From Gammaproteobacteria bacterium (GTDB taxonomy: Bacteria; Pseudomonadota; Gammaproteobacteria; Nitrosococcales; Methylophagaceae): a DNA stretch of 64,000 nt. The stretch is from positions 1-64,000 of the forward strand of contig JACUUH010000001.1 of NCBI GenBank assembly GCA_014859375.1, read 5' to 3'. The position numbers and the translations under genes were made by a program. Under the pieces are notes generated by a model. That model was given only the letters and a program-made list of their open reading frames with translations, was not told the DNA's origin and ran no database searches. Below are positions 32-43,421 of this stretch, piece by piece (position 1 is the stretch's first letter; each line of letters opens with the position of its first letter).

Positions 32-150
32 GCGCCCATAGCTCAACTGGATAGGATATATATCACCGCCTGTCCCTGCACTGACCTTCTAAGTCAGTAC
101 CGTAAAAAGCAGGATGGAGGTGAAAGGTTCGATTCCTGCTGGGCGTACCA
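32..150 (+). tRNA. tRNA-Arg(TCT)-like RNA, irregular
   Basis: A 7-bp acceptor stem (GCGCCCA with TGGGCGT), encoded CCA, a clean anticodon arm (CTGAC-CTTCTAA-GTCAG, anticodon TCT) and a TTCGATT loop point to tRNA-Arg. It is about 40 nt too long. Extra sequence lies on both sides of the anticodon arm; CACC/GGTG and CCTGC/GCAGG in these extras can pair with each other. The D stem lacks its GAGC partner, and the GCAGG that should pair with CCTGC of the T arm is displaced. AGA codons are abundant in the phage genes, so a TCT tRNA would be useful, but this copy may be decayed or may be a tRNA-like element with another role. Confidence 0.55.
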
Positions 151-5164: not shown

Positions 5165-7735
5165 ATGTCTAATTACCTAACAAGACACGCTATAGAAAAT
5201 GTTTGGTGCAGTCATGATCAGGATCATCAACATTTATACCAACCCGCTAGAATCTCAATACCCAAAGGGGTTAGAAGATTTGTTGGTGTGGAATGGTCTA
5301 ATGTTAGACTTCCTGATTATAACAAAACTTACCATGTCTACCAAATAGGTAATATATCTCCAGCTATCATTAACCTTATACCTAATAATGATCGCTGGTA
5401 CATAGCCTCTGAGACTATAAATAAGTATAACATGATAATTGATGTCTATGACGATAAAGGTCGGCATCTACCTAGGTTTACAGCTTATTTTAGAAAAAGT
5501 GTCAGCGGTAATTTAGTTATTGCCGTTGAAGATCAACCAAGAATAAGTGAACTCAGGTATAGAAAGTTATACGTTAGGTTTTATACCAATGCCTATTTCT
5601 CGTCTGAAAGATCCCATGAAACTGAAGACAGAGTTTTCACTAAAGGTATTAAGGTAACTGGTAGAAACCAAGTAGTTGTATTCCAAAATGAAATACAGGA
5701 TATTAAAGACTCTTGGGGCGGTGAGGTTTACGTATTTCTAAATGGTTGGTGGTGTAAAGGGTTTAACCCGGACAATGTTGCAGAGGGAGATATTCTCGAA
5801 TACGTCCACGATACATCCGTTAAGAAAATAGAAAGCTTTAAAATAGATGACTTAGAAACTTTTACCTCTACACTAGATTCTCTTAGAAAGTATTTAATTT
5901 TAAGAGATACTGATTTAATGGATACCATTGATTATAAAGATGACATGGATATCTTTTTGGTTAAAAAGGAAGGTTACTTACAGAAAGGTATAACCTATCA
6001 TCAGTCTACACCGTTCTCTGTAAGAATGGTTACTCATAAAGACTATTCAATCCCAGTGCAACATTTAACAGACTTGGCTAGTGAGATTGAAGATTGGGAT
6101 AATCTATTGGACCTTTACATAGTTCTTCAGATACGCCGAGCAGGGTATGAAAGACCTTTAGTTTTTGAACATCATCGCATAAAAGAACTAATGCGGTTAG
6201 ATAAGGATAAAGTTCTTCAAGCAATGGTTGGCAGTAACTCAAACGTTGAGGAATGGAAAGCTGCTAGTTTAGAGAATAGTAAATATGTTGAGTTAATGAG
6301 AGCTAAGTTACATCAGGTCAATGAAGATTTTGTTCAAACTGCTTATGGTTACAACGCTATAACCAAAATGTTTGGAGATAACCTACATAAGCCTTATAAT
6401 CTTGGAGGAAAGAGAGTAGTATATTTACCCACTCTACTTCAAGACAATGCAACGATCTTTGAATTTGATATGCAAGGAAGATTGGTAGATTTCTATCATC
6501 ATGACTCAGGGCGTATCTATGAAGTTAAGAATGAAATCACAGGTTATGTTGAAGCTATAACTGGCAGAGGCGGGGATAGTTCATACACTTACTACGGATA
6601 TGATTGGATTTTATTAAATCCTTTAGTTGGCTATAAATGCTATATCACTGACCTTGCAGGTGGAAATCCTCTGAAGGATAATTGGAGATTAGCAGTAGAA
6701 GGCAGTGACTACAAAGTGGAGGGTGATGTGCTCACATGGTTGGTTGACAGAGATACCACATGGAGTGCTCTACGCACGGATGATGGTTTCCTTGTAAGGA
6801 AGTTCCAAGATAGCTTTACGGATGGTATTCTTAGATTTACTATCAAGGCTATGGATAGAGTACAAGAAGAAACTGTTGAAGTGTTGAGTCATATACCTCC
6901 TGCCAAACTGGAAGTGTTTTTAAACGGTCATCCACTTATAGAAAATCTAGATTACTTTGTTAAATGGCCCGAGGTCATTATATCAAATAAGGAATACTTA
7001 AAACCTGATTTAGATATCGAACAAGACATAGTTGTCAGATGCTTAGGTTTTTGTACGGATGATTTACAAAGACTACCGGCTAATGATTTTGGATATGTTG
7101 AAAACGGGATTCTTAGCGCTAATAATCGCTTCGATGTTAGGGACGACAAAGTAATGAGATTCGTTGCTGGAGGTAGAATATATCATCAAAACGAATTACA
7201 GTTCTGTGAGGACGACTGTGGCATTAGGATTGGGAACATTGGAAACGGTACTCCTTATCTAATCGACGAGACTCCAGTTGCTTTAGGTAATTTAATTAAT
7301 GAGGAAGTTCATTCGTTTAGAGAAAGAAGTCTTAACTTAGATAAGAGAATATCGGATTATCTAACTATGTATTATCCAGAACCTGAGCGCAGTGAGATTT
7401 CAGTTATTGATAAACGTTACAGAATCATAAGTCCTTTCATCTCTAAGATCTATTATGATCTGGCCAGTGGATTCTTTTACCCAGAAGGTATAGAAAACCA
7501 GTACTCTGAAGAGAAGGCTAGAGAGTGGGTTAAGGATTATGAGTGGTTATTAGATTACGATCCTATCAATCACGGCGTGGATCAGAGATACGTATCTATT
7601 CACCCACATCCATTATTCACAGAGGTGTCGTTGGATATTTACAGATATAACTTCTTACTTAAGATTGTTAAATCGTATTACAACGATAGAATGAATATCG
7701 CTTCCCATATCAACATAAAAGAAGGATGGGTATAA
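5165..7735 (+). CDS. large virion-associated protein (phiKZ gp27 position)
   Basis: An 858-residue (or longer by two) protein between the 4250 gene and the 7739 gene. The ORF track starts at ATG 5159, but the ATG at 5165 is better spaced from the AAGGA ribosome site. The sequence is rich in tyrosine and beta-strand-like segments (YRKLYVRFYTNAYFSS, KLEVFLNGHPLIENLDYFVKWP), which suggests repeated beta domains of a structural protein. Gene order places it in the tail/neck group beside the terminase. No enzyme motif seen. Confidence 0.6.
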   Translation: MSNYLTRHAIENVWCSHDQDHQHLYQPARISIPKGVRRFVGVEWSNVRLPDYNKTYHVYQIGNISPAIINLIPNNDRWYIASETINKYNMIIDVYDDKGRHLPRFTAYFRKSVSGNLVIAVEDQPRISELRYRKLYVRFYTNAYFSSERSHETEDRVFTKGIKVTGRNQVVVFQNEIQDIKDSWGGEVYVFLNGWWCKGFNPDNVAEGDILEYVHDTSVKKIESFKIDDLETFTSTLDSLRKYLILRDTDLMDTIDYKDDMDIFLVKKEGYLQKGITYHQSTPFSVRMVTHKDYSIPVQHLTDLASEIEDWDNLLDLYIVLQIRRAGYERPLVFEHHRIKELMRLDKDKVLQAMVGSNSNVEEWKAASLENSKYVELMRAKLHQVNEDFVQTAYGYNAITKMFGDNLHKPYNLGGKRVVYLPTLLQDNATIFEFDMQGRLVDFYHHDSGRIYEVKNEITGYVEAITGRGGDSSYTYYGYDWILLNPLVGYKCYITDLAGGNPLKDNWRLAVEGSDYKVEGDVLTWLVDRDTTWSALRTDDGFLVRKFQDSFTDGILRFTIKAMDRVQEETVEVLSHIPPAKLEVFLNGHPLIENLDYFVKWPEVIISNKEYLKPDLDIEQDIVVRCLGFCTDDLQRLPANDFGYVENGILSANNRFDVRDDKVMRFVAGGRIYHQNELQFCEDDCGIRIGNIGNGTPYLIDETPVALGNLINEEVHSFRERSLNLDKRISDYLTMYYPEPERSEISVIDKRYRIISPFISKIYYDLASGFFYPEGIENQYSEEKAREWVKDYEWLLDYDPINHGVDQRYVSIHPHPLFTEVSLDIYRYNFLLKIVKSYYNDRMNIASHINIKEGWV

Positions 7736-14792: not shown

Positions 14793-14805
14793 CTAACGGT
14801 ATATT

Positions 14806-14837
14806 AAGACTACCCCTTACAGGTAGTCTTTTTTTGT
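14806..14837 (+). terminator. rho-independent terminator
   Basis: AAGACTACC / GGTAGTCTT stem followed by T7. It closes the 14155-14792 unit. Confidence 0.85.
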
Positions 14838-14926
14838 TTAAAATACCCTATTTACTAGGTGTTTTTTAATGTATGTAAAAAAATACTTTTAAGACGAATC
14901 TAAAAAGGGATATTTATTTACAATTG

Positions 14927-14965
14927 GTAAAAGGGGTCCCCCTCCGGGGATCAGACCCCTTTTAC
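14927..14965. repeat. 12-bp inverted repeat, GC-rich centre
   Basis: GTAAAAGGGGTC and GACCCCTTTTAC are perfect complements, and the loop can itself form CCCC/GGGG. The result is a long cruciform-capable structure without a following T run. Confidence 0.75.
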
Positions 14966-15152
14966 GATTTCTAATTTCTAAGTCTACGTTCGTGCACCGG
15001 TCGCTCTGCTCCCTGCTTACTCCAGTCGCTCTGCTCCTTCTCGTAAGGCACTTCACTAAAAAATTTTCAAAAAAATGAAAATCACTATAACATATTAGAC
15101 ATAGTAAAAAAATATTTTTTTTTTGAAAATTTTAAATACTAATACTTAAGTT

Positions 15153-15185
15153 AGAGAGAAAGGTTTCTTTCAGACCTTTCTCTCT
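15153..15185. repeat. 12-bp hairpin
   Basis: AGAGAGAAAGGT / ACCTTTCTCTCT perfect stem with a 9-nt loop, in the gene-free stretch downstream of the minus-strand 15278 gene. Confidence 0.75.
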
Positions 15186-15211
15186 GAAGTGTTAAGTTAT
15201 AAACCTTAATC

Positions 15212-15263
15212 CCATTATTCTTTTTTTGTTGTTTCATCGAGTGAAACAAAAAAAGAATAATGG
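15212..15263 (-). terminator. long hairpin, terminator for the minus-strand genes
   Basis: CCATTATTCTTTTTTT pairs with AAAAAAAGAATAATGG, and GTTTCA with TGAAAC inside. It lies 15 nt past the stop of the 15278 gene. The T-rich arm would supply termination on the minus strand. Confidence 0.75.
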
Positions 15264-15277
15264 TTGTTATGTCTTTT

Positions 15278-15892: not shown

Positions 15893-16702
15893 TTAGAATC
15901 TACCGCCGGTTATTCTTTTGAGATGTCGCTTATAAGCTTCCTTATCTCCAAACACAGCCATTTTTCTCCAGGTCTCTTCAAAATACTCTTGATACATTTC
16001 TTCTGCATCTGAATATTCTTCAACTATTGAACTAAACCTACCTAATTCTTGACCACCTGATAGTTGAGCCTGATCTATTTGAATAATTAATTTATTGTAA
16101 ATATAAGACTTTACAGCAAGTTCTACTAATTTTGAGAACTTAGGTAGTATACCAGGAGTTAAGTTATTTAACTCTGCATCATTTTCTAACACACATCTTA
16201 AGTGTAGGTTAGGTGCATACTGATGATTAATGTTTGCTAATACGGTATTCTCACCAACTAATCTAATATCGTGATGTGAGATATTAGGGATTGGTAGATG
16301 AGACATCATTAAACCTGCTGTAGCGTCTTCTATAGCGCTAGCACCTTGGTTATACATATTAGCCGTAGTAGGAGATTGGTTAGAACCAATTACTAGAGAG
16401 TAAACTCTACTGATTCTTCTATTCTCTGTGGCTGCCATCGGGATACGCCATAAGGTCTTATTGTCCATAGTGTATTCTGGAATTATACCTTTTAAAGGAA
16501 TGGTTACTTCCTGACCACCTACTAAGTTTAGATCTTTCATAACTCTAGGTTCAATCACCTGCTCTCTTATTAAGTAATCAATTGAGATAGGTGTTCTTTT
16601 TACGAATGAACCGAATATAGCTTCATTAACAAAAGCTCTTTCTAAAATAGCTTGTGGGATCTTAAACTTTAAATCTGTGATAGCGTTGTCTATTGCATTC
16701 AT
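15893..16702 (-). CDS. probable virion structural protein
   Basis: A 269-residue protein without a recognised enzyme motif. A middle region rich in asparagine and proline (HLPIPNISHHDIRLVGENTVLANINHQYAPNLHLRC) looks like a beta-structured virion protein. It is first in a two-gene minus unit, upstream of which lies the TATGTAAAAAA-type motif. The structural role is inferred from style only. Confidence 0.5.
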   Translation of the reverse strand: MNAIDNAITDLKFKIPQAILERAFVNEAIFGSFVKRTPISIDYLIREQVIEPRVMKDLNLVGGQEVTIPLKGIIPEYTMDNKTLWRIPMAATENRRISRVYSLVIGSNQSPTTANMYNQGASAIEDATAGLMMSHLPIPNISHHDIRLVGENTVLANINHQYAPNLHLRCVLENDAELNNLTPGILPKFSKLVELAVKSYIYNKLIIQIDQAQLSGGQELGRFSSIVEEYSDAEEMYQEYFEETWRKMAVFGDKEAYKRHLKRITGGRF

Positions 16703-16737
16703 TTTTTTATACCTTAATTAGAACATTCTACCCTACT

Positions 16738-16777
16738 TATATGTAAAAAAGTAGTTTGCACTTTACTTAATTTGAAT
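16738..16777. promoter_or_regulatory. divergent promoter region before phuZ
   Basis: On the plus strand CACTTTACTTAATTTGAAT (16759-16777) resembles the early-type block and lies about 90 nt before the phuZ start. An adjacent ATATGTAAAAAAGTAGTTT stretch repeats a motif seen at 14872 and 26122 and may serve the minus-strand 16702 gene. Confidence 0.5.
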
Positions 16778-16863
16778 CACAAAATAGGTAGATAATAACT
16801 AACCACCTATCGTGTGGGTAAATTTGTCTAACTTTTTCAACCTTAATTGGAGATTAATCTAAT

Positions 16864-17829
16864 ATGAGTGATAAGCAAATCGGAACTCTAAGAGTCTATG
16901 GATGCGGTGGCATGGGTACTAACGTAGCTAGTTACTTCAATGGCGCAGGTGTAGAACCTGGTACAGCCGCTATAGAAGCTGTATACATTGACACTAGTCG
17001 TTCTAATCTTAAAGAAGGTTTAGCCGAAGATGATGTTTACATCCTACCAAATGTAGACGGCTCTGGTAAAATCCGTAAAGAAAACTATCAAGAAATTTCT
17101 AATGTAATTAAGCAGATTTTATTAGAGTTTGTTCCTGGTGATTTTAACGTTGTTGTATTTAGCGCCTCTGGTGGCTCTGGTTCTGTAATTGGACCTTTGT
17201 TATTGGGTGAGTTATTAAATCGTGGTCTTTCAGCTGTTTGTATGGTAGTAGGTTCTGATGAATCTATTCTAACTGCAGAAAACACTTTGAAGACATTGAA
17301 GTCTTTAGAAGCTATTGCTAAATCTTCTAAGTTGCCAGTGGTTATGCGTTATGAACACAATGACCGTCGTCGTTCTGAAGTAGATAATCAAATTCGTTTG
17401 GCGATTTCAGCATTGGCTATCTTAGCGTCTAAGCAAAACCGTGAATTAGATTCAGCAGACATTGCTAACTGGGTTCAATTCTCTAAAACTACTTCGGTGG
17501 CCCCACAGCTATCAATGTTAGAAATCTTTGCTGATGTAGATTCAGCTAATGAAGTTAAAGATCCTATTTCAGTAGCAAGCATTTTCAAAGATGAAGACGG
17601 TGGTCGTCTACAAGCTATTCCTGAATATCATGCAGCCGGTTATACTAACCAAGCAAGTGGTGATGTTTCTGAATTGCACTTTGTAATTAGCATTGATGAC
17701 GTTCCTGGTATTTTTGGTAATATCAAAAAGACTTTAGATCAGTATAGTTCACAGCGTGACGGTCGTGTTAAACAAGCTTCTATTTTAGATGCTAACGATG
17801 TCACTACTGACGATGGTCTAGTTCTTTAA
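16864..17829 (+). CDS. phuZ: PhuZ-like phage tubulin
   Basis: A 321-residue tubulin/FtsZ-family GTPase, close in size to phiKZ-type PhuZ (about 315). The nucleotide-binding glycine motif GCGGMGTN is at residues 13-20 and the tubulin signature loop appears as SASGGSGSVIG (about 100-110). A segment rich in aspartates around 220-245 (EIFADVDSANEVKDP) fits the T7 loop region. The acidic C-terminal tail (DANDVTTDDGLVL) matches the tail needed for filament contacts in known PhuZ. PhuZ filaments centre the phage nucleus and carry capsids. Codon use is that of a highly expressed gene. Confidence 0.9.
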   Translation: MSDKQIGTLRVYGCGGMGTNVASYFNGAGVEPGTAAIEAVYIDTSRSNLKEGLAEDDVYILPNVDGSGKIRKENYQEISNVIKQILLEFVPGDFNVVVFSASGGSGSVIGPLLLGELLNRGLSAVCMVVGSDESILTAENTLKTLKSLEAIAKSSKLPVVMRYEHNDRRRSEVDNQIRLAISALAILASKQNRELDSADIANWVQFSKTTSVAPQLSMLEIFADVDSANEVKDPISVASIFKDEDGGRLQAIPEYHAAGYTNQASGDVSELHFVISIDDVPGIFGNIKKTLDQYSSQRDGRVKQASILDANDVTTDDGLVL

Positions 17830-17852
17830 TAAAGTTATAAAGGAGGTAAGCT

Positions 17853-18071
17853 ATGGCTTTATTTGTATGTGATGTATGCGGTACAGTAGATAGCACTGAT
17901 ATAGCTTACCCCGACGGTCTTATGGACGGCGGTAAGCCTTTAACAGAGTTAAAATGTACAGAATGTCAAACTGGTACCTGGCATGAGCTTTTCGAAAAAG
18001 AAGCTTATCGTCCAGAGTTTGATGTTGTCATTAACAGACCTTCTGGTATAGGTCTGGGTAGTGAGAAGTAA
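17853..18071 (+). CDS. small zinc-ribbon protein
   Basis: A 72-residue protein with two CxxC pairs (CDVCG at about 6-10 and CTECQ at about 36-40), the spacing of a rubredoxin-like zinc ribbon. AAAGGAGG ribosome site; 23 nt after phuZ and probably co-transcribed. The C-terminal tail is likely disordered. Function unknown; nucleic-acid or protein binding is possible. Confidence 0.7.
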   Translation: MALFVCDVCGTVDSTDIAYPDGLMDGGKPLTELKCTECQTGTWHELFEKEAYRPEFDVVINRPSGIGLGSEK

Positions 18072-18435
18072 AAACTAACTTTGGTTAGTATTGTATGAGT
18101 TTAGGTGTATAAATCTTTAGTAAAGTGATCCAACCCGACCGAGTAGTAAAGAGCGTAGTTCTTTAGAAGTCCCGCATAACTAGTTTATATACCTAAACCT
18201 TTCCTTTAAAGCATTTGTGGTTGAGTGTTTTAAACGAAGGGTGCTTCCCATTCTTCGTATGGTTAAACCTTATTCTGAATGCATGTTGGGTATTCAGACC
18301 ATTGAATTGGTAAGGTTGGATTTGTTGTATAATTGCTCATTGGTTGGTTAGTTTACCGACAGATAATGCGGTGTAGTTCTTATAAGGGTTTTTTATGTCT
18401 CCTGACCTTAGGGCTACACCGTACTTTTTACTTTT
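18072..18435 (+). ncRNA. candidate large structured RNA, new family
   Basis: A gene-free stretch of about 445 nt downstream of phuZ and the zinc-ribbon gene is densely foldable. Helix A pairs 18099-18113 with 18184-18198 (15 bp, one G-U). CGAAG/CTTCG form a hairpin near 18234-18257. AACCTTA (18266) pairs with TAAGGTT (18311), enclosing TCTGAAT/ATTCAGA and CCA/TGG hairpins as a three-way junction. CGGTGTAG (18369) pairs with CTACACCG (18414) around TAAGG/CCTTA. A T-rich tail follows. No matching ORF exists on either strand. It resembles no RNA class I can name. Confidence 0.55.
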
Positions 18436-18518
18436 TATGCCGCAAAATTAGAAAAATCAATGAAAAAATATACGAACCCTTAATATTAAGATGAGTATGA
18501 ATAGAAGAGGGTGTTTTA

Positions 18519-18920
18519 ATGAGACGAGTAGGTTTAATCTACGACGTTGCCGATTTAAATCTTCTAGTGTTAAGAGACATTAGTAAAGCTTTAAGTTTTC
18601 TAAATCAACAAGAATATAGTGAAGAGGAGATTCTAGACTATTGGTATCAGAAACAGTTTAGATTACAAGGTAAGGTACTACTTCCATATAAGCCAACAAT
18701 TAGATTTGGTTCTATAGTACCTAACGACATAGATTGGTTAGTTGATACATGTGTCCATCCGGCACTTGGTAGAATACTTTGGAGACTAGTCTTAATACCT
18801 TCTGAAATAGGCGGTAGGGAATTAACTAAATATTCCATAACCGAAAGAACCTTAACATTAGAATACTTAGTTAACGCAGACATTAAGTTAAGTTCTATGT
18901 TTTATAAAACAAACACATAA
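18519..18920 (+). CDS. unknown small protein, cluster gene 1
   Basis: A 133-residue protein, first of nine tightly packed small genes after the candidate RNA. Contains a tryptophan-rich middle (DIDWLVDTCVHPALGRILWRLVLIP). No recognised domain or membrane segment. The AGAGGG ribosome site is modest. Confidence 0.6.
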   Translation: MRRVGLIYDVADLNLLVLRDISKALSFLNQQEYSEEEILDYWYQKQFRLQGKVLLPYKPTIRFGSIVPNDIDWLVDTCVHPALGRILWRLVLIPSEIGGRELTKYSITERTLTLEYLVNADIKLSSMFYKTNT

Positions 18921-18930
18921 GGAAAGTCTA

Positions 18931-19392
18931 ATGCGGATAATCCTGCCGAGCAAAGAATACACGGATATACTAAAAATAAAATCAGATAACTACTGTAACC
19001 ACAATAACTTACCAGAAATTCCAATGGAAGTTTGTTTCTTAATGGTAGAAGCGATGTTTGATACAGCTCACTTTTCTAGATTGCTATGGTGTAAGTCATA
19101 CGCAAGAATTGAAGATGCTGTAGCACATATCCCCTGGTGGACATATGAAGATGTGGAAATCACAGAGATGAGTGGTATGGCTAGAATCTCTCAGGACTAC
19201 TACGTTAATATAATAGATGAGTTATTCTTAGGTGTGATGGAACTAACACAAAAAATAGTACCTATTACGCACGAAAACGATCAATGGGTATTTTGGCTAA
19301 AGTCAAGGAACTCTTACGACATATTAATTGAAAAAGCAGAAGACTATCGAATAATGGTCTATAACGAAAAAATGAGAAATGGTGAATGGTAA
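18931..19392 (+). CDS. unknown small protein, cluster gene 2
   Basis: A 153-residue protein, 10 nt after the previous stop with an AAGGAAAG ribosome site. A segment DYYVNIIDELFLGVMELTQKIVP followed by a short tail echoes the layout of cluster genes 3 and 6. Function unknown. Confidence 0.6.
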   Translation: MRIILPSKEYTDILKIKSDNYCNHNNLPEIPMEVCFLMVEAMFDTAHFSRLLWCKSYARIEDAVAHIPWWTYEDVEITEMSGMARISQDYYVNIIDELFLGVMELTQKIVPITHENDQWVFWLKSRNSYDILIEKAEDYRIMVYNEKMRNGEW

Positions 19393-19856
19393 TGAAAAGT
19401 TTGTTAGTAAACGTAACCGAACTTAACTGTTACATTTCTAGTAGACTTATCCCACATCTTGGACCCTCAGCTGTTTCTAATAATTATTCAGAGATTATTA
19501 GACTAATGATAGAATCTGTACTTTACCCATATACCGATTTCCCTTATGATAATATTCATAGAGAGTTCTCGTTGTATGGGATAGACAGAAATGTATCAGA
19601 GGGTGTAATTGGTGACTTGAGTGTAATGGCATATAGGTTAGTTGGTTGGTATAAACGTCAATTTACCAGTTACGATGAACATGTATTTGACGTAATAGTT
19701 AAAGACGCTAACTGCGTGCAAATAGCCTACCTGGGCATTGCAAGAGTCCAAAGTCAACAGTCTCTAGAAGAACAGCTTAAGCAACAAATAATGAGTGACA
19801 TGGATAACGGTCACTTTATACCTGAGAAGACAAGACACCTGGCTGGTGTTTATTGA
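19386..19856 (+). CDS. unknown small protein, cluster gene 3
   Basis: A 156-residue protein overlapping the preceding stop (TAATG), so translation is probably coupled; ATG 19392 is an equally possible start. Contains GVIGDLSVMAYRLVGWYKRQF followed by a strand-like DVIVKDANCVQIAYLG, a helix-then-strand layout shared by several cluster genes. Function unknown. Confidence 0.6.
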   Translation: MVMKSLLVNVTELNCYISSRLIPHLGPSAVSNNYSEIIRLMIESVLYPYTDFPYDNIHREFSLYGIDRNVSEGVIGDLSVMAYRLVGWYKRQFTSYDEHVFDVIVKDANCVQIAYLGIARVQSQQSLEEQLKQQIMSDMDNGHFIPEKTRHLAGVY

Positions 19857-20227
19857 AGAAGGTGTTTAGCATGAAAGATGCAAAAGGCATAATTCTAAAC
19901 ACAAACTTACTTGATGGTACATCTCCGGAATATTTTGATGTTAACCCTATAGAAGTGTTGGCATTGATATTAGAATTAGTCGAGGATGTGGGTGACATAG
20001 AACTTGTTGATGACATTGAAGTAGCCCGTCGTTTTATAACGGGTAAATGGATGTCAGAACAAGGCGATGCTCTTGTTGATATAGAGAGAGCAGCTGATGT
20101 AGTTACTCAATTATCACAAGAAATAAGAACACGCTTTAAAAAGCACTTATCTGTTAAACCCAAAGATAAGAAATGGTTTGTTCTTAAAACAAGTAAGTTT
20201 GTAGTCGTGATAGGTGAACTTAAATGA
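19853..20227 (+). CDS. unknown small protein, cluster gene 4
   Basis: A 124-residue protein whose start overlaps the stop of the previous gene by 4 nt. ATG 19871 preceded by AAGAAGGTG is an alternative start (MKDAKGIILN). The first half is acidic (ELVEDVGDIELVDDIE), the end is basic. Function unknown. Confidence 0.55.
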   Translation: MKKVFSMKDAKGIILNTNLLDGTSPEYFDVNPIEVLALILELVEDVGDIELVDDIEVARRFITGKWMSEQGDALVDIERAADVVTQLSQEIRTRFKKHLSVKPKDKKWFVLKTSKFVVVIGELK

Positions 20228-20748
20228 CTATAGTAAGAAATTTCATAATGGACAGATCAGCCTTTCCATCAATACATGAAGAAATCTTGGGGCTTCTAAG
20301 AGAGCCCCAAGAGTCTTTTTATTATAACTTCGTTTACCTATTTAGTGTTATTTGTACAATAGACGATGTTTATGAATACTGGAAAGATTTCATAAATGAC
20401 GTTGATTGGATTAACCATAACTTAACCCCCTCTGGATTAGATGCTAACGATGCTATGTGGGAGTTAACTAACAGATACATTGAATTTCATCAGAATAATT
20501 ATAGACGTTTATATTTCCTAAGAAAACCTCCACCTGGTGTTGAGTACGTAGTTACTTCGTTGTCATTTATTACCGACACCACCTTATTAGTTGAGATAGA
20601 TCCTTTTGTTCAGCAAGATGATAATGAAATATATGCGCCTCCTTCAGATGAAATTTTAATGATGAAGAAAGTTGAAAAAGGTGAAAGACTTTACGGAAGT
20701 GATAATTATGAGAGATCAGTCCAACCATTACATTATCGTCCCTATTGA
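20224..20748 (+). CDS. unknown small protein, cluster gene 5
   Basis: A 174-residue protein overlapping the previous stop (ATGA). Helical N-terminal part with aromatic residues (YYNFVYLFSVICTIDDVYEYWKDF), then a strand-like region. Function unknown. Confidence 0.6.
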   Translation: MTIVRNFIMDRSAFPSIHEEILGLLREPQESFYYNFVYLFSVICTIDDVYEYWKDFINDVDWINHNLTPSGLDANDAMWELTNRYIEFHQNNYRRLYFLRKPPPGVEYVVTSLSFITDTTLLVEIDPFVQQDDNEIYAPPSDEILMMKKVEKGERLYGSDNYERSVQPLHYRPY

Positions 20749-21139
20749 TTCTGTGTATAACCCTCATACGGAAGACGGTTGTATATTAGACTCTTTAGGG
20801 ATAGATGTAGATTATTTAATTGAATTGGCTATTGTGGCTTTTAATTCCACGGAAAACAATAGAGCTATAGCGTTAGGGTTTGAAACAGATCCTTGGTCAA
20901 CAATAATGGATGATCTTATTGGCGCTGAAATTACAGACCTATTGTTTCACTTAACTCCCATGGAGCAAGAAAACGCTCTAGTTAAGATAGCTAATTTGGC
21001 ATGTAACTTAAGATGGTTATTCTTAAGTGTTATAGATAAAGTAAATCCATCTCTAAGACGAATGGATACTAATGTACGACTTAGTTTAGTAAAGCTTATA
21101 GGTACAACACCAGTGATAGGTATAACAAGAGGTTGGTAA
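20708..21139 (+). CDS. unknown small protein, cluster gene 6
   Basis: A 143-residue protein. The track starts at 20672, but ATG 20708 (MRDQSNHYIIVPID) gives a smaller overlap with the upstream gene and has a GGAAGTG site before it. Helices AIVAFN and NALVKIANLACNLRWLFLSVIDKV precede a C-terminal strand. Function unknown. Confidence 0.55.
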   Translation: MRDQSNHYIIVPIDSVYNPHTEDGCILDSLGIDVDYLIELAIVAFNSTENNRAIALGFETDPWSTIMDDLIGAEITDLLFHLTPMEQENALVKIANLACNLRWLFLSVIDKVNPSLRRMDTNVRLSLVKLIGTTPVIGITRGW

Positions 21140-21140
21140 C

Positions 21141-21578
21141 ATGGAACGAAAAATGACATTGGATCTTACAAAGGAACATGATTTGCTATTTAAAAAATTA
21201 GCCAGTCTACGTGTTATACCGGATAACTTAGATAAAATGATAAATGACACATTATTGTGTGTTAATCAGTTATCTATAGAAAGTTCGGAGCAAGAAATAA
21301 CATCAGTTGTTAAACCGATACTTACTTTCCAACCCACTTATCTGCAATGGTGCGTCTTCAACGGCGATGAAGTGTATGAGAGAGTCCCATATCCCGCACC
21401 TGTGGATGATGAATATAATTTTATTTTGAATACATTTGTAACTGTTGTAAAGTCGTTAGTCCAACGTTTAAATAAGTTTGCTATTTTCAAACAGAGTGAA
21501 GAAGGTACTCCAATGGAGGTCTCTATAAAGCTTTTGGAAATTAAACAACGAACTGGTGTAGTTTTGATTAAGAGGTAA
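21141..21578 (+). CDS. unknown small protein, cluster gene 7
   Basis: A 145-residue protein starting 1 nt after the previous stop. Two helical halves (LTKEHDLLFKKLASLRVIP; NFILNTFVTVVKSLVQRLNKF) and a C-terminal strand-rich end (LLEIKQRTGVVLIKR). Function unknown. Confidence 0.6.
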   Translation: MERKMTLDLTKEHDLLFKKLASLRVIPDNLDKMINDTLLCVNQLSIESSEQEITSVVKPILTFQPTYLQWCVFNGDEVYERVPYPAPVDDEYNFILNTFVTVVKSLVQRLNKFAIFKQSEEGTPMEVSIKLLEIKQRTGVVLIKR

Positions 21579-21580
21579 TC

Positions 21581-21916
21581 ATGCCTAAAATATTTATAGT
21601 CGAATACGATGACATACAACATGGTATAGACATCGTCAGATCTGTAATGTATGCAGATACGCCAAGAGGCGATCCATATATTGAACATGAGGTGAGAGTA
21701 GAGTTAGAGTTAATTCTGAACTTTATCTTAGGTCTACATTTCTGCTATATGGATGAAAGAGCTATAAAGTCCAAGGAGTATTATCACTCATGTAAGGCAA
21801 TACTTGAGAACTTATTGGATAAGCAAATTTATCGGTTTTTGTCCGACCAACCTTTGAAGAAGATTGACTTAACACCCAACAATCTTCTTTTATTTAAACT
21901 AGAGGAAGATCAATGA
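21581..21916 (+). CDS. unknown small protein, cluster gene 8
   Basis: A 111-residue protein 2 nt after the previous gene. A helical core (HEVRVELELILNFILGLHFCYMDERAIKS) is followed by a short C-terminal strand. Function unknown. Confidence 0.6.
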   Translation: MPKIFIVEYDDIQHGIDIVRSVMYADTPRGDPYIEHEVRVELELILNFILGLHFCYMDERAIKSKEYYHSCKAILENLLDKQIYRFLSDQPLKKIDLTPNNLLLFKLEEDQ

Positions 21917-22317
21917 CGTTAAAAGATTATTTGGAGTATGGTAATATTATCAGCTTCGATACTTATCCTGCAAGTATTATCGGTGCAAGATTTGAAGATG
22001 TAAAAGTTATGGCTCTCTTAGATAAAGAAACAGCCAAACAATACATAGACCCGGATACGTTGCATGTTAACGTATATCCATTGTTACCAGCTGGTTCACC
22101 AGATGATCCCGATGCTTACCAGTATGTTAAACTAAAACATCCAAACGGTAACATCACGGTGATAGGTACACCTTGGATTATCCCAGATACATTATCTATT
22201 GTTAATAAAGGTAACTTAACTATTCTTATTGAAGATGTTACAGTAACTGATAGAGAAGTAATCTTACGCGCAATTAAAGATAATGGTTATCAAGTAAAAC
22301 GTACCGAGTTAGTTTAG
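21913..22317 (+). CDS. conserved-looking small protein, cluster gene 9
   Basis: A 134-residue protein overlapping the previous stop by 4 nt. Begins MTLKDYLEYGNIISFDTYPASIIG, a beta-rich opening I associate with phage SH3-fold proteins of unknown role; the region HVNVYPLLPAGSPDDPDAYQYVKLKHPNG is also beta-rich. Last gene of the cluster; a terminator follows. Function unknown. Confidence 0.6.
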   Translation: MTLKDYLEYGNIISFDTYPASIIGARFEDVKVMALLDKETAKQYIDPDTLHVNVYPLLPAGSPDDPDAYQYVKLKHPNGNITVIGTPWIIPDTLSIVNKGNLTILIEDVTVTDREVILRAIKDNGYQVKRTELV

Positions 22318-22667: not shown

Positions 22668-22749
22668 TTCGAGTATGTCTTTTTTAGGTTAAAAAATAAA
22701 GCTTTGCCTTATACTGTTGATGAGCAAAAAAACATACGGGAGAATCGGT

Positions 22750-24945
22750 GTGGAAAATCATTTTATTTTAACCGCAGAAGAATACACCAAAACAAGAGAT
22801 TTAAATATAGTAGGTAACTATATTGAGGATGCCGCATTATTTCTTCACAAAAGAACAGGTAAACCTTTAGAACAATGTAAAGATTATGTCGTAAAGGTAA
22901 CTGGTGTAAATGGTAAGTATAGGTTACAAGACCCTGATGTGTTATCTTTAACTAAACATACGCCTGGTAATAGAGAGAAGGAAGTTATACCCTTTTCATT
23001 ATACCTTAAAGAAGTTGTTGAAGGAGATATGGTTATTTCACCAACCATGGCGGTATATGTACCTGCCAAGGTGAAGGTTTCTATCCTTTCTGAATTTATC
23101 GACAATAACATTAAAAGACGTAGTAAATCTAAGAAAGAAATGTTCGCTGCAAAAATGAGACACGATGAGTTACTAGAGACATTTAAGAATAACGAGCAGA
23201 CGTCCTTTAAGATTTCTAACAACTCGCTATCCGGCGCACAGGCTTCTACAGGTACTATCCTCTATAACAAGTCAGCTCACTCTACTTTAACGTCTACTTG
23301 TAGGACAGCTACTAGTTATGCCAATGCCAATAATGAAAAGTTCTTATTTGGTAATAGACATTACTGGAATCCGGATATAGTCAAGAATAACATTATCTCT
23401 ATTGTTAGAAATACTGACTATGTTTCATTAACGAAGACTTTAGAAACCTACGGCATTGTTCATCCAACAGTTGAACAAACAATGGATTGCATTACCTACT
23501 CTACCGACCTATATTGGAAAAGAAGCAAGAAGGTAATAACTGAAATAGAGCAATTGGTTAGAGGGTTAACCGATATAGAAAGAAGCGCTTTTGTTTATAC
23601 GGGTGACTTCTATCACTTAGCTAAGTATAATCCTGAAATCATGAGGGAGTTTCTTACACGTATAACTATCAAAGATACTTCCATTGTTGATAATCCCACA
23701 GGTTACTTAGATGAGTTAAATGAAGATTCGTTAGCATACGTTTCTCTTTTATGCGCTAAAGAAATTAATGGACGTCCTTTGTTTGAGGTGTTGGGTAAAA
23801 AAGAAGATGTCCCTAGGGATGATGTTACTGTTAACATTCTAGGTGCAACCGCTAAAAATTTAATAAATACCTTGAACCATTATCAATACCTTATTAAAGG
23901 GTTATGGAGAGTTAGATCTTTACCGGCGTCGGTGGCTAATATTAGAAGTAGTTTAAGAAGAGGTGTAGTAACCTCAGATACAGACTCCACTATTTTCTCT
24001 ACTCAATATTGGACAGAGTGGTATGTAGGTAAAATAGACTTTAGCGAACAATCTAAAGCTGTCTCCTACGCCATGACTTATTTAGTAACACAAAACGTGG
24101 CGCATATCCTTGCTACTATTTCAGCTTCAATGGGTGTTGATGAGAAACAAATGTTTAAGCTGGCTATGAAAAACGAATTTGCGTTTCCGGTGTTTGTACT
24201 AACATCCATAGCTAAACATTACTTTGCATTCATATCGGCTCAAGAAGGTAACGTATACAAAGAAATGGATATGGAGGTTAAGGGTGTTCAGTTAAAGGAT
24301 TCCAATATACCGCCACACATCATGGAAGCTTTTAAGGAACGTCTAAAGGATATAATGACTTCTGTAATGGAAGGTAAAATGTTAAGCATAGAAGACCTTA
24401 AGAAAAGAGTTTCTACCATCGAGTACGATATTATTAACTCAGTTAAAAGAGGGGATTCTAGATATCTAACAGGAACTAACATTAAAGAGAAAGGTTCTTA
24501 TGTGAATCCTTTGAGTTCACCGTTTGCACATTACTTAATGTGGCAGGAAGTATTCGCACCAAAGTATGGTGATGCACCAGAGCCACCTTACCAAGCCGTT
24601 AAGGTATCTGTGGAGTTAGATAATAATACTAAGTTAAAACTTTGGTTAAATGGACTCACCGACGTAGGTGTTAGAGATAGAATGGAGAGCTATCTAAAGA
24701 ATAGTAAGAAGAATGGTGTTAAGACGCTAATACTACCTAGGTCACTCATTGAGTCTAATGGGATACCAGATGAGATTATTAGTGCTATGAATATCAGAAA
24801 ACTTGTTTATTCTTGCGTTAGACCTTATTATCTTTTAATGGAATCTTTAGGGTTTTATATGGTCAATGATAATCTTACTAAACTTGTAAGTGATCTAGTA
24901 CCTCCTTATTCCGAAGAAGAACTTAATATGCTAGATAGGAAATAA
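22750..24945 (+). CDS. family B DNA polymerase, C-terminal half (motifs B and C)
   Basis: A protein of 731-742 residues. The start is uncertain: GTG 22750 has a GGGAG site 7 nt upstream, while ATG 22720 lacks one. Numbered from the ORF-track start, motif B is KISNNSLSGA (about 165-174; compare KxxxNSxYG), motif C is SDTDS (about 420-424), and a thumb-like KGVQLKDSNIPPHIMEAF follows near 540. Exonuclease and motif A are absent; they lie in the 53407-55098 protein on the other strand. The two together would make one polymerase for replication inside the phage nucleus. About 250 residues separate motifs B and C, far more than usual, so there is an insertion. Confidence 0.82.
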   Translation: MENHFILTAEEYTKTRDLNIVGNYIEDAALFLHKRTGKPLEQCKDYVVKVTGVNGKYRLQDPDVLSLTKHTPGNREKEVIPFSLYLKEVVEGDMVISPTMAVYVPAKVKVSILSEFIDNNIKRRSKSKKEMFAAKMRHDELLETFKNNEQTSFKISNNSLSGAQASTGTILYNKSAHSTLTSTCRTATSYANANNEKFLFGNRHYWNPDIVKNNIISIVRNTDYVSLTKTLETYGIVHPTVEQTMDCITYSTDLYWKRSKKVITEIEQLVRGLTDIERSAFVYTGDFYHLAKYNPEIMREFLTRITIKDTSIVDNPTGYLDELNEDSLAYVSLLCAKEINGRPLFEVLGKKEDVPRDDVTVNILGATAKNLINTLNHYQYLIKGLWRVRSLPASVANIRSSLRRGVVTSDTDSTIFSTQYWTEWYVGKIDFSEQSKAVSYAMTYLVTQNVAHILATISASMGVDEKQMFKLAMKNEFAFPVFVLTSIAKHYFAFISAQEGNVYKEMDMEVKGVQLKDSNIPPHIMEAFKERLKDIMTSVMEGKMLSIEDLKKRVSTIEYDIINSVKRGDSRYLTGTNIKEKGSYVNPLSSPFAHYLMWQEVFAPKYGDAPEPPYQAVKVSVELDNNTKLKLWLNGLTDVGVRDRMESYLKNSKKNGVKTLILPRSLIESNGIPDEIISAMNIRKLVYSCVRPYYLLMESLGFYMVNDNLTKLVSDLVPPYSEEELNMLDRK

Positions 24946-28318: not shown

Positions 28319-29566
28319 ATGGGTGTATATTTAAAATTAGTGAATCATGACCAACTCTTTTCAGAGTCTAAGTCACAACAACACATAGTTAACTACTACG
28401 ACCTTAGTAATAAGACACAGATGGATGAGTTGAATAACATCATCTTTACTTCTTATAACCAAGACTCGTTAGAGATTTTACCTACTTGCGACTGTGGTGC
28501 CCTTAAAGGCACTTATAACGTTGGTTTGAAATGTAGTGACTGTAACACTGAATGTTTACCGGTAACAGAACGACCTTTAGAATCAGTATTGTGGATAACA
28601 ACCCCTCAAGGTGTTGATACATTAATAAACCCTGAAGTATGGATTATCTTGCAAAAGAAATTCATGGACGGTGGCGTTAATGTATTGGAGTGGTTAACTA
28701 ACCCTAGATACAGAGTATCTGAAGAACGTGAGCCAGTGAGTATAAAGAAGTTGAAGCAAAGAAATGTAGGTAGAGGGTTAAATCACTTCTATCAAAATTT
28801 CGATAGTTTAATGAAGTTGTTAATTGACGATAAAATAATTAAACTTGGCAATCAACAAGATAGAGATGACTTAAAACTTTTCCTAAAGGAAAATAGAGAA
28901 GCTATTTTCTCTAAGTACATCCCTATTCCCTCTAAGATGGCTTTCATTACAGAAAGTTCAGCAATGGGTACTTACGCTGACCCTAACATGTTACCAGCTA
29001 TTGATGCTGTAAGAACGATTAGTTCTATTGAGAACGGTGTTAAATCATTGAATGATAAGACACGAGAAGTAAGAACTGTTCAAGCTATTCAAAAGTTAGC
29101 TGAGTATTATGAAACCTTTTACGGTAAACCTATTGGTCATAAATCAGGATGGTTCAGAAAACACATTTACGGTTCGAGAACTCACTTTAGTTTCCGTGCT
29201 GTAATTGCATCGTTAACTGATCCACACGACTATGATGAAGTGCATTTACCATGGGGTATGGCGGTGATGTTTTTAAGCATTCATTTGATCAGTAAACTTC
29301 TAAAAAGAGGGTTTACTCCTAATGAAGCTAAAAGGCATATTCATGAACATACGTTGAAATACGACATTCTCTTAGATGAGTTATTTCAAGAGCTAATAGC
29401 TGAATCGCCATATAAGGGTTTACCTATTATACTCCAACGAAATCCTTCATTGACTAGAGGTTCTGCTCAACAGTTGTTTGTAACTAAGATTAAAACAGAT
29501 CCAAACATTAATACTGTTTCAGTTTCTGTATTAATCCTTCCGGCGTGGAACGCGGATTTTGATGGT
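28319..29566 (+). CDS. nvRNAP beta-prime N-terminal subunit, exon 1 (phiKZ gp55-like)
   Basis: 416 residues of the first exon. ATG 28319 follows an AGGAG site, so the track start at 28253 is too early. A zinc-binding cluster (CDCGALKG...CSDC, about 47-67) and the double-psi barrel lead to NADFDG, the first six residues of the catalytic NADFDGD motif. An unspliced transcript would run into a stop 2 codons later. Joining to exon 2 gives a 473-residue subunit. In phiKZ this subunit belongs to the non-virion RNAP that transcribes phage genes within the nucleus. Confidence 0.88.
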
Positions 29567-30955
29567 AGATAACATTGCCTTCGTTAAATCTCTCTAATTG
29601 CGGGAAATCCCTTAGAGCTTAATGATACTACTTACAGGTAGCAATACACTGTAATACTTACCCCAGTAATGGAAGTGGTAAGCATAGTAAAAACTCATTA
29701 AGATTGGGTGATCGGCGCAGCGAAGCTTCCCATAGGGAAGTGTGTTCAACGACTAGTGCTATGCACGTAGGGTACCAAGTGGACCCGAAACGGGAGACAC
29801 TCTTAAGAGTGAAGATATAGTCTCAACCGGTATGAAAGTATCGGAAGTTAACAACTGGACATTGTTAACGGTCGGAGTAACGTCCGATAGTCAATTATTC
29901 GTAATATTATTTAAAAAGGCAAAAAAAAATGGATCTAAAGTTAATACCAGATACTTTAGGTTTTTTAGCAGATGGTAAAGGAGGTATATATTCACCCGAC
30001 GGATCTCGTAGAAATACTTATGAGAATTTAGACGGGTACATTACAGCTTCAGTTAAGCATAAAACCTTAGGGTGGAGGACTTTTGGTGTCCATCGTTTAA
30101 CAGCCCTAGCCTTCCATCCTGTAAAAAATCCTGAAGATTTACAGGTTAATCACATTGATGGTAATGTTAAGAACAATGAAAAACATAATCTAGAATGGGT
30201 TAACGTCAAAGAAAATAACGTACATGCTTCAGTATTAAAAAGTAGTGGGAAAAGCAATAGAGTAAAATTATTATCCGAAAACGGAGAAGTAAGATTTTTA
30301 ATAGATTTAAAGGAAACAGCTGCTGAACTTGACGTAAGTGAGGTGGAGGTTTGGAATTCAATTAAGGAAAGAAAACCCTTAAAGGGGTTTGTAATTGAGC
30401 ACGCAGGTAAAAACATAACTAAAAGTAATGTCAAAGATAAGTATAAACCCTACTTAACTAAATTAAAGGCTAAATCGGTAGATACAGGTGAGGAGGTTTT
30501 ATTCGACGGGAATAGAGAAGCAGCCAAATACTTTAGAGTTAGCCGCCCTTTATTGGCACACATGATGTCGGACAACATTAGATTCAAATTACTTAAAGGT
30601 GAATGGTTAGTCGTTTATCAAGAACAGGATTATCCCGTTTACAATGAAGAAATGATAGAAGAGGCTAGATCCCATGGTAGAAAAGAAGTTTACGTCGTTC
30701 GTTTAAGGGACGGTAAAAAATTTATCTACCCCAGCGCGGCATCTTTTATACGTGACTTTAACTTAAGTAAAAAAGCTATCTCTACCAGATTAAAGAAAAA
30801 CAAACTAGAGGAAGTTTCCGGTTTCGTATTTCTATACTTTAACGATGTTAATGTGAAGTTAATTAAAGATTTCTTGGATGGTCCAGCTGAAAAGAAATAG
30901 TTAAAAAAGAATAATTGACGAATAAAAACGGTCTTTGACCGTACAATGAAAATTG
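29567..30955 (+). ncRNA. group I intron in the catalytic NADFDGD motif, with HNH gene
   Basis: Exon 1 ends with T of GGT and the intron ends with G before GATGCT, as group I introns require. Joining restores NADFDGDALNG exactly. Core elements are visible before the ORF: AATTGCGGGAAA (P-Q), GTTCAACGACTA (R) and GAAGATATAGTC (S), typical of T4-type IA introns. An HNH endonuclease gene lies 3' of the core. A GCC near 29578 can pair with the exon GGT as guide sequence. ACGGTC/GACCGT forms a hairpin before the 3' end. Confidence 0.88.
29929..30900 (+). CDS. intron-encoded HNH homing endonuclease
   Basis: A 323-residue protein inside the beta-prime intron, 3' of the ribozyme core. The HNH core is at about 60-105 (HRLTALAFHP, VNHIDGNVKNNEKHNLEWV, ENNVHA). 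Downstream lie two or three NUMOD-type helix-turn-helix units (AAELDVSEVEVWNSI, AAKYFRVSRPLLAHMM, ASFIRDFNLSKKAISTRL) that would read the intron-less target. It would copy the intron into intronless alleles and may interfere with competing phages. Ribosome site is weak (AAGGC). Confidence 0.85.
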   Translation: MDLKLIPDTLGFLADGKGGIYSPDGSRRNTYENLDGYITASVKHKTLGWRTFGVHRLTALAFHPVKNPEDLQVNHIDGNVKNNEKHNLEWVNVKENNVHASVLKSSGKSNRVKLLSENGEVRFLIDLKETAAELDVSEVEVWNSIKERKPLKGFVIEHAGKNITKSNVKDKYKPYLTKLKAKSVDTGEEVLFDGNREAAKYFRVSRPLLAHMMSDNIRFKLLKGEWLVVYQEQDYPVYNEEMIEEARSHGRKEVYVVRLRDGKKFIYPSAASFIRDFNLSKKAISTRLKKNKLEEVSGFVFLYFNDVNVKLIKDFLDGPAEKK

Positions 30956-35250: not shown

Positions 35251-35330
35251 GGGCCCTTAGCTCAGCTTGGTTTTAGAGCAAACGACTCATAATCGTTAGG
35301 TCCACGGTTCGAATCCGTGAGGGCCCACCA
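35251..35330 (+). tRNA. tRNA-Ile(CAT), lysidine type
   Basis: Acceptor GGGCCCT pairs fully with AGGGCCC, the anticodon arm is AACGA-CTCATAA-TCGTT, the T arm is CACGG-TTCGAAT-CCGTG and CCA is encoded. The CAT anticodon in this body, including TCATAAT, matches bacterial tRNA-Ile2, which reads ATA after lysidine modification, rather than elongator Met. ATA codons are frequent in the phage genes. Confidence 0.85.
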
Positions 35331-42223: not shown

Positions 42224-43421
42224 TAGAAACAATTTGAGTTTCTACTTAGGATAAATATGCTAAGTGATCTTCAATTTGATTTTGACAAAAAATGGATGGA
42301 ATTAATTGAGTTGTATCAATTTCCATTCGATAGATTACCCAGTGTAAATCCAAATAACATTGTTTTTACACAACCTGTACCCAGATTAAAATCAAAACCA
42401 GTACCATGGATGATTTTTAATAAACCAATAATGGTTAATTTGAAGTACAGACTTATTCCAAACTTTCCCTTCAACGCCATATGCAAGAAAGGTGAAGTCA
42501 TCTCAATAGTTACTGGTAAAATACTTCCAGTTAGTATTTATCACGAATACCCAACTGTTGAGGTTTATGACCCACTAAGTTTGCGGCACCGCAGTGTTAA
42601 GTTACACAGACTCTTAGCTTTGGCTTGGATTAAAAATAATATTCCTTGGGAAAAACCGTATGTTAATCATAAAAACGGTAACAAGGTAGATTATAGACTT
42701 TCTAATCTAGAGTGGTGTTCTTCATCGGAGAATGCAACGCATGCTATTAAACATGGGTTAAGAAAAGATAACTTTACATGTACGGTAAAGAATATAGAAA
42801 CAGGGGAAAGTGTCGATCTTGAATCTATTAGAAACGCCTGTCGTTTCATGGGTATTAGCGAAGACACTCACTTCAAAGATTTACAACGTTGGATGGAACG
42901 AGATGGTTCCATATGTGGAAAATACACGATTACTAAACACAGCTCTAAAAGCGGTGTTAAGAATGAAGGGTTTAGGGTAACTGCTAAGAGTGACAAAGAA
43001 ACTTTAGAGTTTAATTCACTTAGGAAAGCCGCTACACATTTTAACGTTGATAGATCTGTTATTCGAGACGGTAGAGTTTGGAAAGGGTATAAATTGTCAA
43101 TATATAGCCCGACCGTGTAGTGATACACGGTTGAAACTTCTCTAATTGCTGGAAACTCCCGTTAGGGTTAACGTAGGATACTGAGCTGTAAAGACTCAGC
43201 GACCCCTGAAAATCGTTAACATAGGGACAATCAGCAGCGAAGCTTCCCATAGGGAAGAACGTTCAACGACTAAGACATTTACCAGTCTGTACATCCAAGT
43301 GGATGGAAACGGGAAGGCACTTTATTGTAAAGTGTAAGATATAGTCTGTTCTACATGGAGACATGTAGCGTGTGCACGTAATGGTGCGGGTGAGAAGTAA
43401 CGAATCTCATTGAACAAAAAG
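42224..43421 (+). ncRNA. second group I intron, in the beta HG-KG motif
   Basis: The exon ends GGT and the intron ends G before AAAGGA; joining gives HGGKGVI, aligned with bacterial HGNKGVI without gap. The core near 43140-43360 has AATTGCTGGAAA, GTTCAACGACTA and AAGATATAGTC, almost identical to the beta-prime intron. The HNH gene lies 5' of the core, the reverse of intron 1. A hairpin ACCGTGTA/TACACGGT follows the ORF stop. Alternative joins (HGG-NKKKG) are possible but add residues. Confidence 0.85.
42257..43120 (+). CDS. intron-encoded HNH homing endonuclease
   Basis: A 287-residue protein in the 5' part of the beta intron. The HNH core is at about 118-170 ([41 protein letters not shown]), followed by NUMOD-type units ([24 protein letters not shown]). 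It resembles the 29929 endonuclease in the HNH core but has a longer N-terminal region. It would promote spread of its intron. Confidence 0.85.

Follow-up and report, generated by a model that had tools for sequence, protein, structure and literature searches.

A count made in 2021 put the known noncoding RNAs of phages at only 21 (PMC8545117). In the phuZ-bearing jumbo phage phiKZ, Grad-seq and Northern blotting documented an abundant RNA of ~100 nt, which is assumed to be a cleavage product of the PHIKZ298 3' UTR and forms two stem-loops, the second of them perhaps a terminator; phiKZ also has the 5' UTR-p40 noncoding RNA, which is structured, ~180 nt long and carries a possible terminator at its end (PMC8545117). 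The region considered here comprises positions 18072-18435 of a 64-kb window (the whole stretch of DNA that was analysed), which forms the first part of a 209,130-base contig (C4) of a 2.35-Mb assembly. C4 is a jumbo phage contig, as judged from the PhuZ, divergent family B DNA polymerase, SH3DP protein and DUF7484 protein that it encodes. Transcription and translation take place in separate places in nucleus-forming phages, so RNA tails that set the stability or location of a message could matter in them; if the folded tail after the spindle gene is a stable RNA, it would offer a testable handle on the fate of jumbo-phage messages.

As the original prediction had placed it, and as the ORF list bears out, the region lies between the phuZ/zinc-ribbon pair and a nine-gene cluster. 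The phuZ gene (16864..17829, + strand) encodes a tubulin/FtsZ-like phage spindle protein of 321 aa (Pfam TubZ_C_2, 6.5e-18, with a weak Tubulin match) that shares at most 46% identity with the PhuZ proteins of named phages, LucasX being the best. It is followed on the same strand by a gene (17853..18071) for a 72-aa zinc-ribbon protein (CxxC...CxxC), 61.5% identical to that of Xanthomonas phage LucasX and 63% to that of L016, a relative described below; this gene is kept beside phuZ in several relatives. The nine-gene cluster (18519..22317, + strand; ORFs and Pfam) encodes small proteins without known function, the last being the SH3DP protein (Pfam PF20287), and precedes the divergent family B DNA polymerase (22717-24945; Pfam). 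Four of the nine cluster proteins match L016 proteins.

The claim that the region is free of genes held, since the ORF list contains no frame of at least 60 aa, and neither the 44-aa and 53-aa frames nor any other frame within it has relatives among the collected loci. Like the PHIKZ298-type RNA of phiKZ, it is thus a folded, ORF-free stretch after a stop codon, which is one of the features that define such an RNA. A search against Rfam had been proposed as a check; with Rfam 15 the region matched no family even at E <=5 and nothing at gathering level, and the sole relaxed match (SNORD35, E 0.25) is located outside it. ARAGORN and Rfam detected no tRNA or tmRNA at 18072-18435, the single ARAGORN tRNA of the 64 kb being at 35251, and no group I intron model matched the region, which interrupts no gene. 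Structured RNAs do occur elsewhere on the contig. Group I introns are found at 29500-29844 and 43032-43368 (81 and 85 bits), and beyond the window a phage-borne permuted (two-piece) tmRNA occupies C4 93393-93815 (L008 9393-9815; RF04321, 83 bits). At 32-147 (+ strand) there is a tRNA with the anticodon-loop CTTCTAA (UCU, Arg), whose anticodon arm is flanked by insertions of ~24 nt on the 5' side and ~21 nt on the 3' side that can pair with one another; this tRNA was undetected by ARAGORN and scored 28.8 bits in Rfam against a cut-off of 29. Directly after this tRNA-like element comes another domain, of ~115 nt (147-261, + strand), with a long closing helix (15 bp in the minus-strand reading); behind it lie a terminator and an early promoter, an arrangement that matches the one at 18072-18435.

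The folding observation itself was confirmed. On the + strand the region folds with -106.2 kcal/mol (z -4.5), a value equalled by none of 100 dinucleotide shuffles, whereas the - strand gives z -1.0; without the terminator the two values are -4.0 and -0.95. The fold is limited to one strand because it contains many G-U pairs, and the poor folding of the - strand indicates RNA rather than DNA. Against the background of a coarse scan of 300-nt windows over the 64 kb (n=213), however, the + strand has a mean z of -1.6 (sd 1.7) and 29 windows lie under -3.5. Strong folds are thus frequent across the phage genome and the z value is not decisive by itself; the case for structure leans more on strand bias, helix length and relatives. 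Helices of at least 16 bp number only five on the + strand of the 64 kb, and shuffled sequence yields 0-1 helices of at least 15 bp.

The reliability of individual helices was expressed as pair probability (P), computed both locally and in the context from phuZ to 18520. The gap is predicted to open, just past the stop codon of the zinc-ribbon gene, with a 6-bp hairpin (18074..18089, P 0.79). This hairpin is followed by a first domain of 100 nt (18099..18198, subdomain z -4.7) with a branched interior, including an 8-bp hairpin at 18147-18165. The closing helix of this domain, originally described as 15 bp with internal hairpins, is indeed predicted and comprises 16 bp (18099-18114/18183-18198, mean P 0.92); it is one of the five helices of at least that length and encloses an interior of 68 nt. 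Next come two adjoining G-U-rich hairpins (18206..18258, subdomain z -3.6), of 12 bp (18206-18233, P 0.95) and 10 bp (18234-18258, P 0.64). The three-way junction proposed at 18266..18317 is predicted locally, with a 7-bp stem, a 9-bp arm and a 3-bp arm (P 0.82, 0.96 and 0.81), but its 7-bp stem is gone in the phuZ-to-18520 context (P 0.00), in which the other tested helices persist; the junction is therefore the least secure part of the predicted structure. Finally, a terminator-like hairpin ends the region (18367..18435, subdomain z -4.6), followed by TACTTTTTACTTTTT, a U-tract that is interrupted. The terminal helix expected at 18369-18421 is thus present, but instead of 8 bp it has an outer stem of 14 bp (18367-18380/18410-18423, P 0.96, and near 1 in all contexts tried) and an inner one of 6 bp (P 0.73). 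A simple terminator scan with a loop limit of 8 nt did not flag this hairpin. In general, the helices first drawn by eye proved accurate within 1-2 bases, although the 12-bp, 10-bp and 6-bp (18074-18089) hairpins had been missed.

To which transcript the fold belongs can be judged from the promoters. The early-promoter motif of this phage is nAnTTAAACnAAAGTCAACTCCATATTACTnnnTTGA, consisting of a core, CATATTAC, and an upstream element, AAAGTCAAC; the core is similar to the phiKZ early promoter TATATTAC (PMC7058600). A TGTAAAAAAATACTT motif had been considered as the promoter and was replaced by the CATATTAC motif. The motif scan returned ten strong sites, all on the + strand and in or at intergenic gaps preceding same-strand genes; those in the window are at 341, 12976, 22360, 26220 and 49293, and the others lie further along C4. 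Past the terminator-like hairpin, just before the nine-gene cluster, there is a weak match on the + strand (18458..18499; score 4.7, about 18th among 209,000 + positions), which is by far the best + match within 16600-18520 and has a strong counterpart in L016 (position 5558, score 17.6). Near 18072, where the folded RNA begins, we found no early-type match comparable to the one at 18458. Given the early motif at 18458 and in L016, and none at the RNA 5' end, the simplest transcript consists of phuZ, the zinc-ribbon gene, the folded tail and the terminator. In phages of this type, middle and late promoters show almost no sequence signal and follow no usable consensus (PMC7598289), so a transcription start could also lie inside the gap.

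The folding, its strand, the absence of an ORF, the position shared with L016 and the place of the promoter motif come from computation; that transcription arrives from phuZ and terminates here, that the RNA is cleaved and what it does are inferred. Our best explanation, in which our confidence is evenly balanced, is that 18072-18435 forms a structured 3' UTR on the phuZ/zinc-ribbon mRNA and may be freed as a stable noncoding RNA. Transcription would run through phuZ and the zinc-ribbon gene and continue into ~290 nt of folded RNA, made up of the 100-nt domain with its 16-bp closing helix, the two hairpins and the three-way junction. It would then stop at the terminator-like hairpin at ~18367-18435, which would part the message from the nine-gene cluster, itself presumably transcribed from a separate promoter of the early type. 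Probably the folded tail shields the message at its 3' end or, once cleaved off, persists as a ~350-nt noncoding RNA; protection of the end would be the modest option and a trans-acting RNA the bolder one.

IMG/VR and GTDB genomes were searched for relatives by way of PhuZ, the zinc-ribbon protein and the DNA polymerase. No DNA relative of the region was found: blastn found no relatives in 50,697 phage records, two exact 20-mers from it had no match in IMG/VR, and a covariance model of the 100-nt domain, run across 36 sources, found only its own source sequence. PhuZ profiles retrieved 58 loci in IMG/VR, and only L016 and L022 were near enough for comparison. L016 (IMGVR_UViG_3300014060_000007), the closest usable relative, has the same gene order (PhuZ 57%, zinc ribbon 63%, polymerase 57%), and at the same position, between zinc ribbon and cluster, an ORF-free gap of 592 nt with a strong terminator at its end; without that terminator the gap folds with z -6.3 on the + strand vs -0.9 on the other. 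The two gaps are not alignable except at the promoter. In L022 (PhuZ 54%) hairpins also follow the zinc ribbon, folding favours neither strand (z -2.6 and -3.0) and the contig stops inside the gap; by eye, its end (~7429-7509) resembles a Nextera adapter followed by poly-A, an assembly artefact. Farther phages have short gaps, of 54 nt (phiKZ) and 61 nt (PhiPA3) after phuZ and 32 nt (LucasX) after the zinc-ribbon gene, and in several of them the gap holds just one terminator. Position and foldedness are kept while sequence is free, which suggests that shape rather than sequence is kept, if anything is. The region is a good candidate, conserved at the level of position and not of sequence, and the strand-specific fold, the absence of an ORF and the same arrangement in L016 together support the proposed + strand structured noncoding RNA. 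The idea of a nucleus-related scaffold found no evidence, and in nucleus-building phiKZ the gene after phuZ begins just 54 nt further on.

The size, branching, terminator-like 3' end and one-stranded fold of the region, along with the equally structured gap of L016, would also suit an independent noncoding RNA gene, transcribed from its own middle or late promoter just after the zinc-ribbon gene, whose product would work in trans, either by targeting host or phage mRNAs or through a phage protein that binds it. Two more distant phages point the same way. In L046 (6991-7300) and L052 (6980-7270), a pair with PhuZ 43% identical, a structured stretch without a long conserved ORF begins directly after phuZ, with a consensus fold of z -6.5 (+) and -2.0 (-) and with 8 compensatory, 11 one-sided and no broken changes, counts for which the structure was picked from the same alignment. 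This suggests that other phages, too, have an RNA structure under selection behind phuZ. However, a standalone RNA, as the original prediction allowed, lacks an early-type promoter at its 5' end, and trans-acting RNAs usually retain their binding sequences, whereas 18072-18435 and L016 have no sequence in common; moreover, it would be missing from LucasX, phiKZ and PhiPA3, with their gaps of 32-61 nt after phuZ or the zinc-ribbon gene. We thus consider such a gene unlikely, if still credible.

Rather improbable, in our view, is that the region is a hairpin-rich spacer with no function past termination, that is, AT-rich phage intergenic DNA that tolerates inverted repeats and holds one terminator. 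The 29 strongly folding windows and the lack of kept sequence in the relatives favour such a reading, as does the finding that other intergenic gaps of C4 fold as strongly as this one. Yet reliance on G-U pairs limits the fold to a single strand, in contrast to the inverted repeats of spacers, a 16-bp helix enclosing 68 nt is not expected by chance, and L016 independently has the same strand bias. Elsewhere on the contig, the gap at 14793-15277, which follows a + gene and precedes a - gene, contains several long inverted repeats and folds with z -7.7 (+) and -7.1 (-).

A doubtful but wider reading of the same comparisons is that giant phages with phuZ carry a phuZ-linked structured RNA whose place and foldedness are kept and whose sequence has almost fully turned over, a new class of RNA acting by shape of which L046/L052 would be a distant instance. 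If true, this class could localise or stabilise the spindle message or bind a phage protein. The L046/L052 stretch has no sequence similarity to 18072-18435, to which no link was found, and in L046 it has no Rfam match. Before the promoter of L046 (~7490-7520), the repeat GACGGC...GCCGTC...GCCGTC would permit two mutually exclusive hairpins, as read by eye from the alignment. An apparent RNA in a further group (L026/L028-L030/L032/L033/L062) was rejected: much of the aligned gap looks by eye like an open frame, and the rest does not fold strongly.

The region also shares its strand with the nine-gene cluster and precedes it, its terminator-like hairpin lying ~95 nt ahead of the cluster's first start codon. 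A leader controlling the cluster had been proposed; it could be a 5' riboswitch-like element that attenuates the cluster at the terminator. We consider this very unlikely: the last base of the hairpin is 18423, and the early-promoter-like site begins only at 18458, past the terminator, as does its strong counterpart in L016; in addition, we found no antiterminator fold, the outer stem of the terminator pairs with P near 1 throughout the contexts tried, and no Rfam riboswitch matched. A DNA element, such as a replication origin or a packaging or recombination site, would account for inverted repeats within a gene-free stretch, but it is the least probable reading, indeed extremely so, as the complementary strand folds weakly (z -1.0) and the many G-U pairs are disfavoured in DNA hairpins.

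As a structured 3' UTR of the phuZ/zinc-ribbon message or an RNA released from it, the region would belong to a kind already known, the structured phage UTR or noncoding RNA. It shares with GOLLD, ROOL and OLE, the first two of which are linked to phages, the character of a large, branched, noncoding RNA, but these RNAs are larger, and 18072-18435 has no Rfam match and is a series of hairpins in tandem, not a single compact fold of large size. The phiKZ 5' UTR-p40 RNA is likewise a structured noncoding phage RNA with a possible terminator end, but it is a leader with early termination. It was also considered as a syntenic counterpart and rejected, since PHIKZ040 begins 54 nt after phuZ, too short a distance to hold a 180-nt RNA, and p40 is very unlikely to be PHIKZ040. 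The PHIKZ298 RNA differs in its length of ~100 nt, its two stem-loops and the gene that it follows, and it has been seen on Northern blots, while the RNA at 18072-18435 is a prediction; nevertheless, both belong to phuZ-bearing jumbo phages, and both are ORF-free folded RNAs that follow a stop codon and end in a hairpin that is perhaps a terminator.
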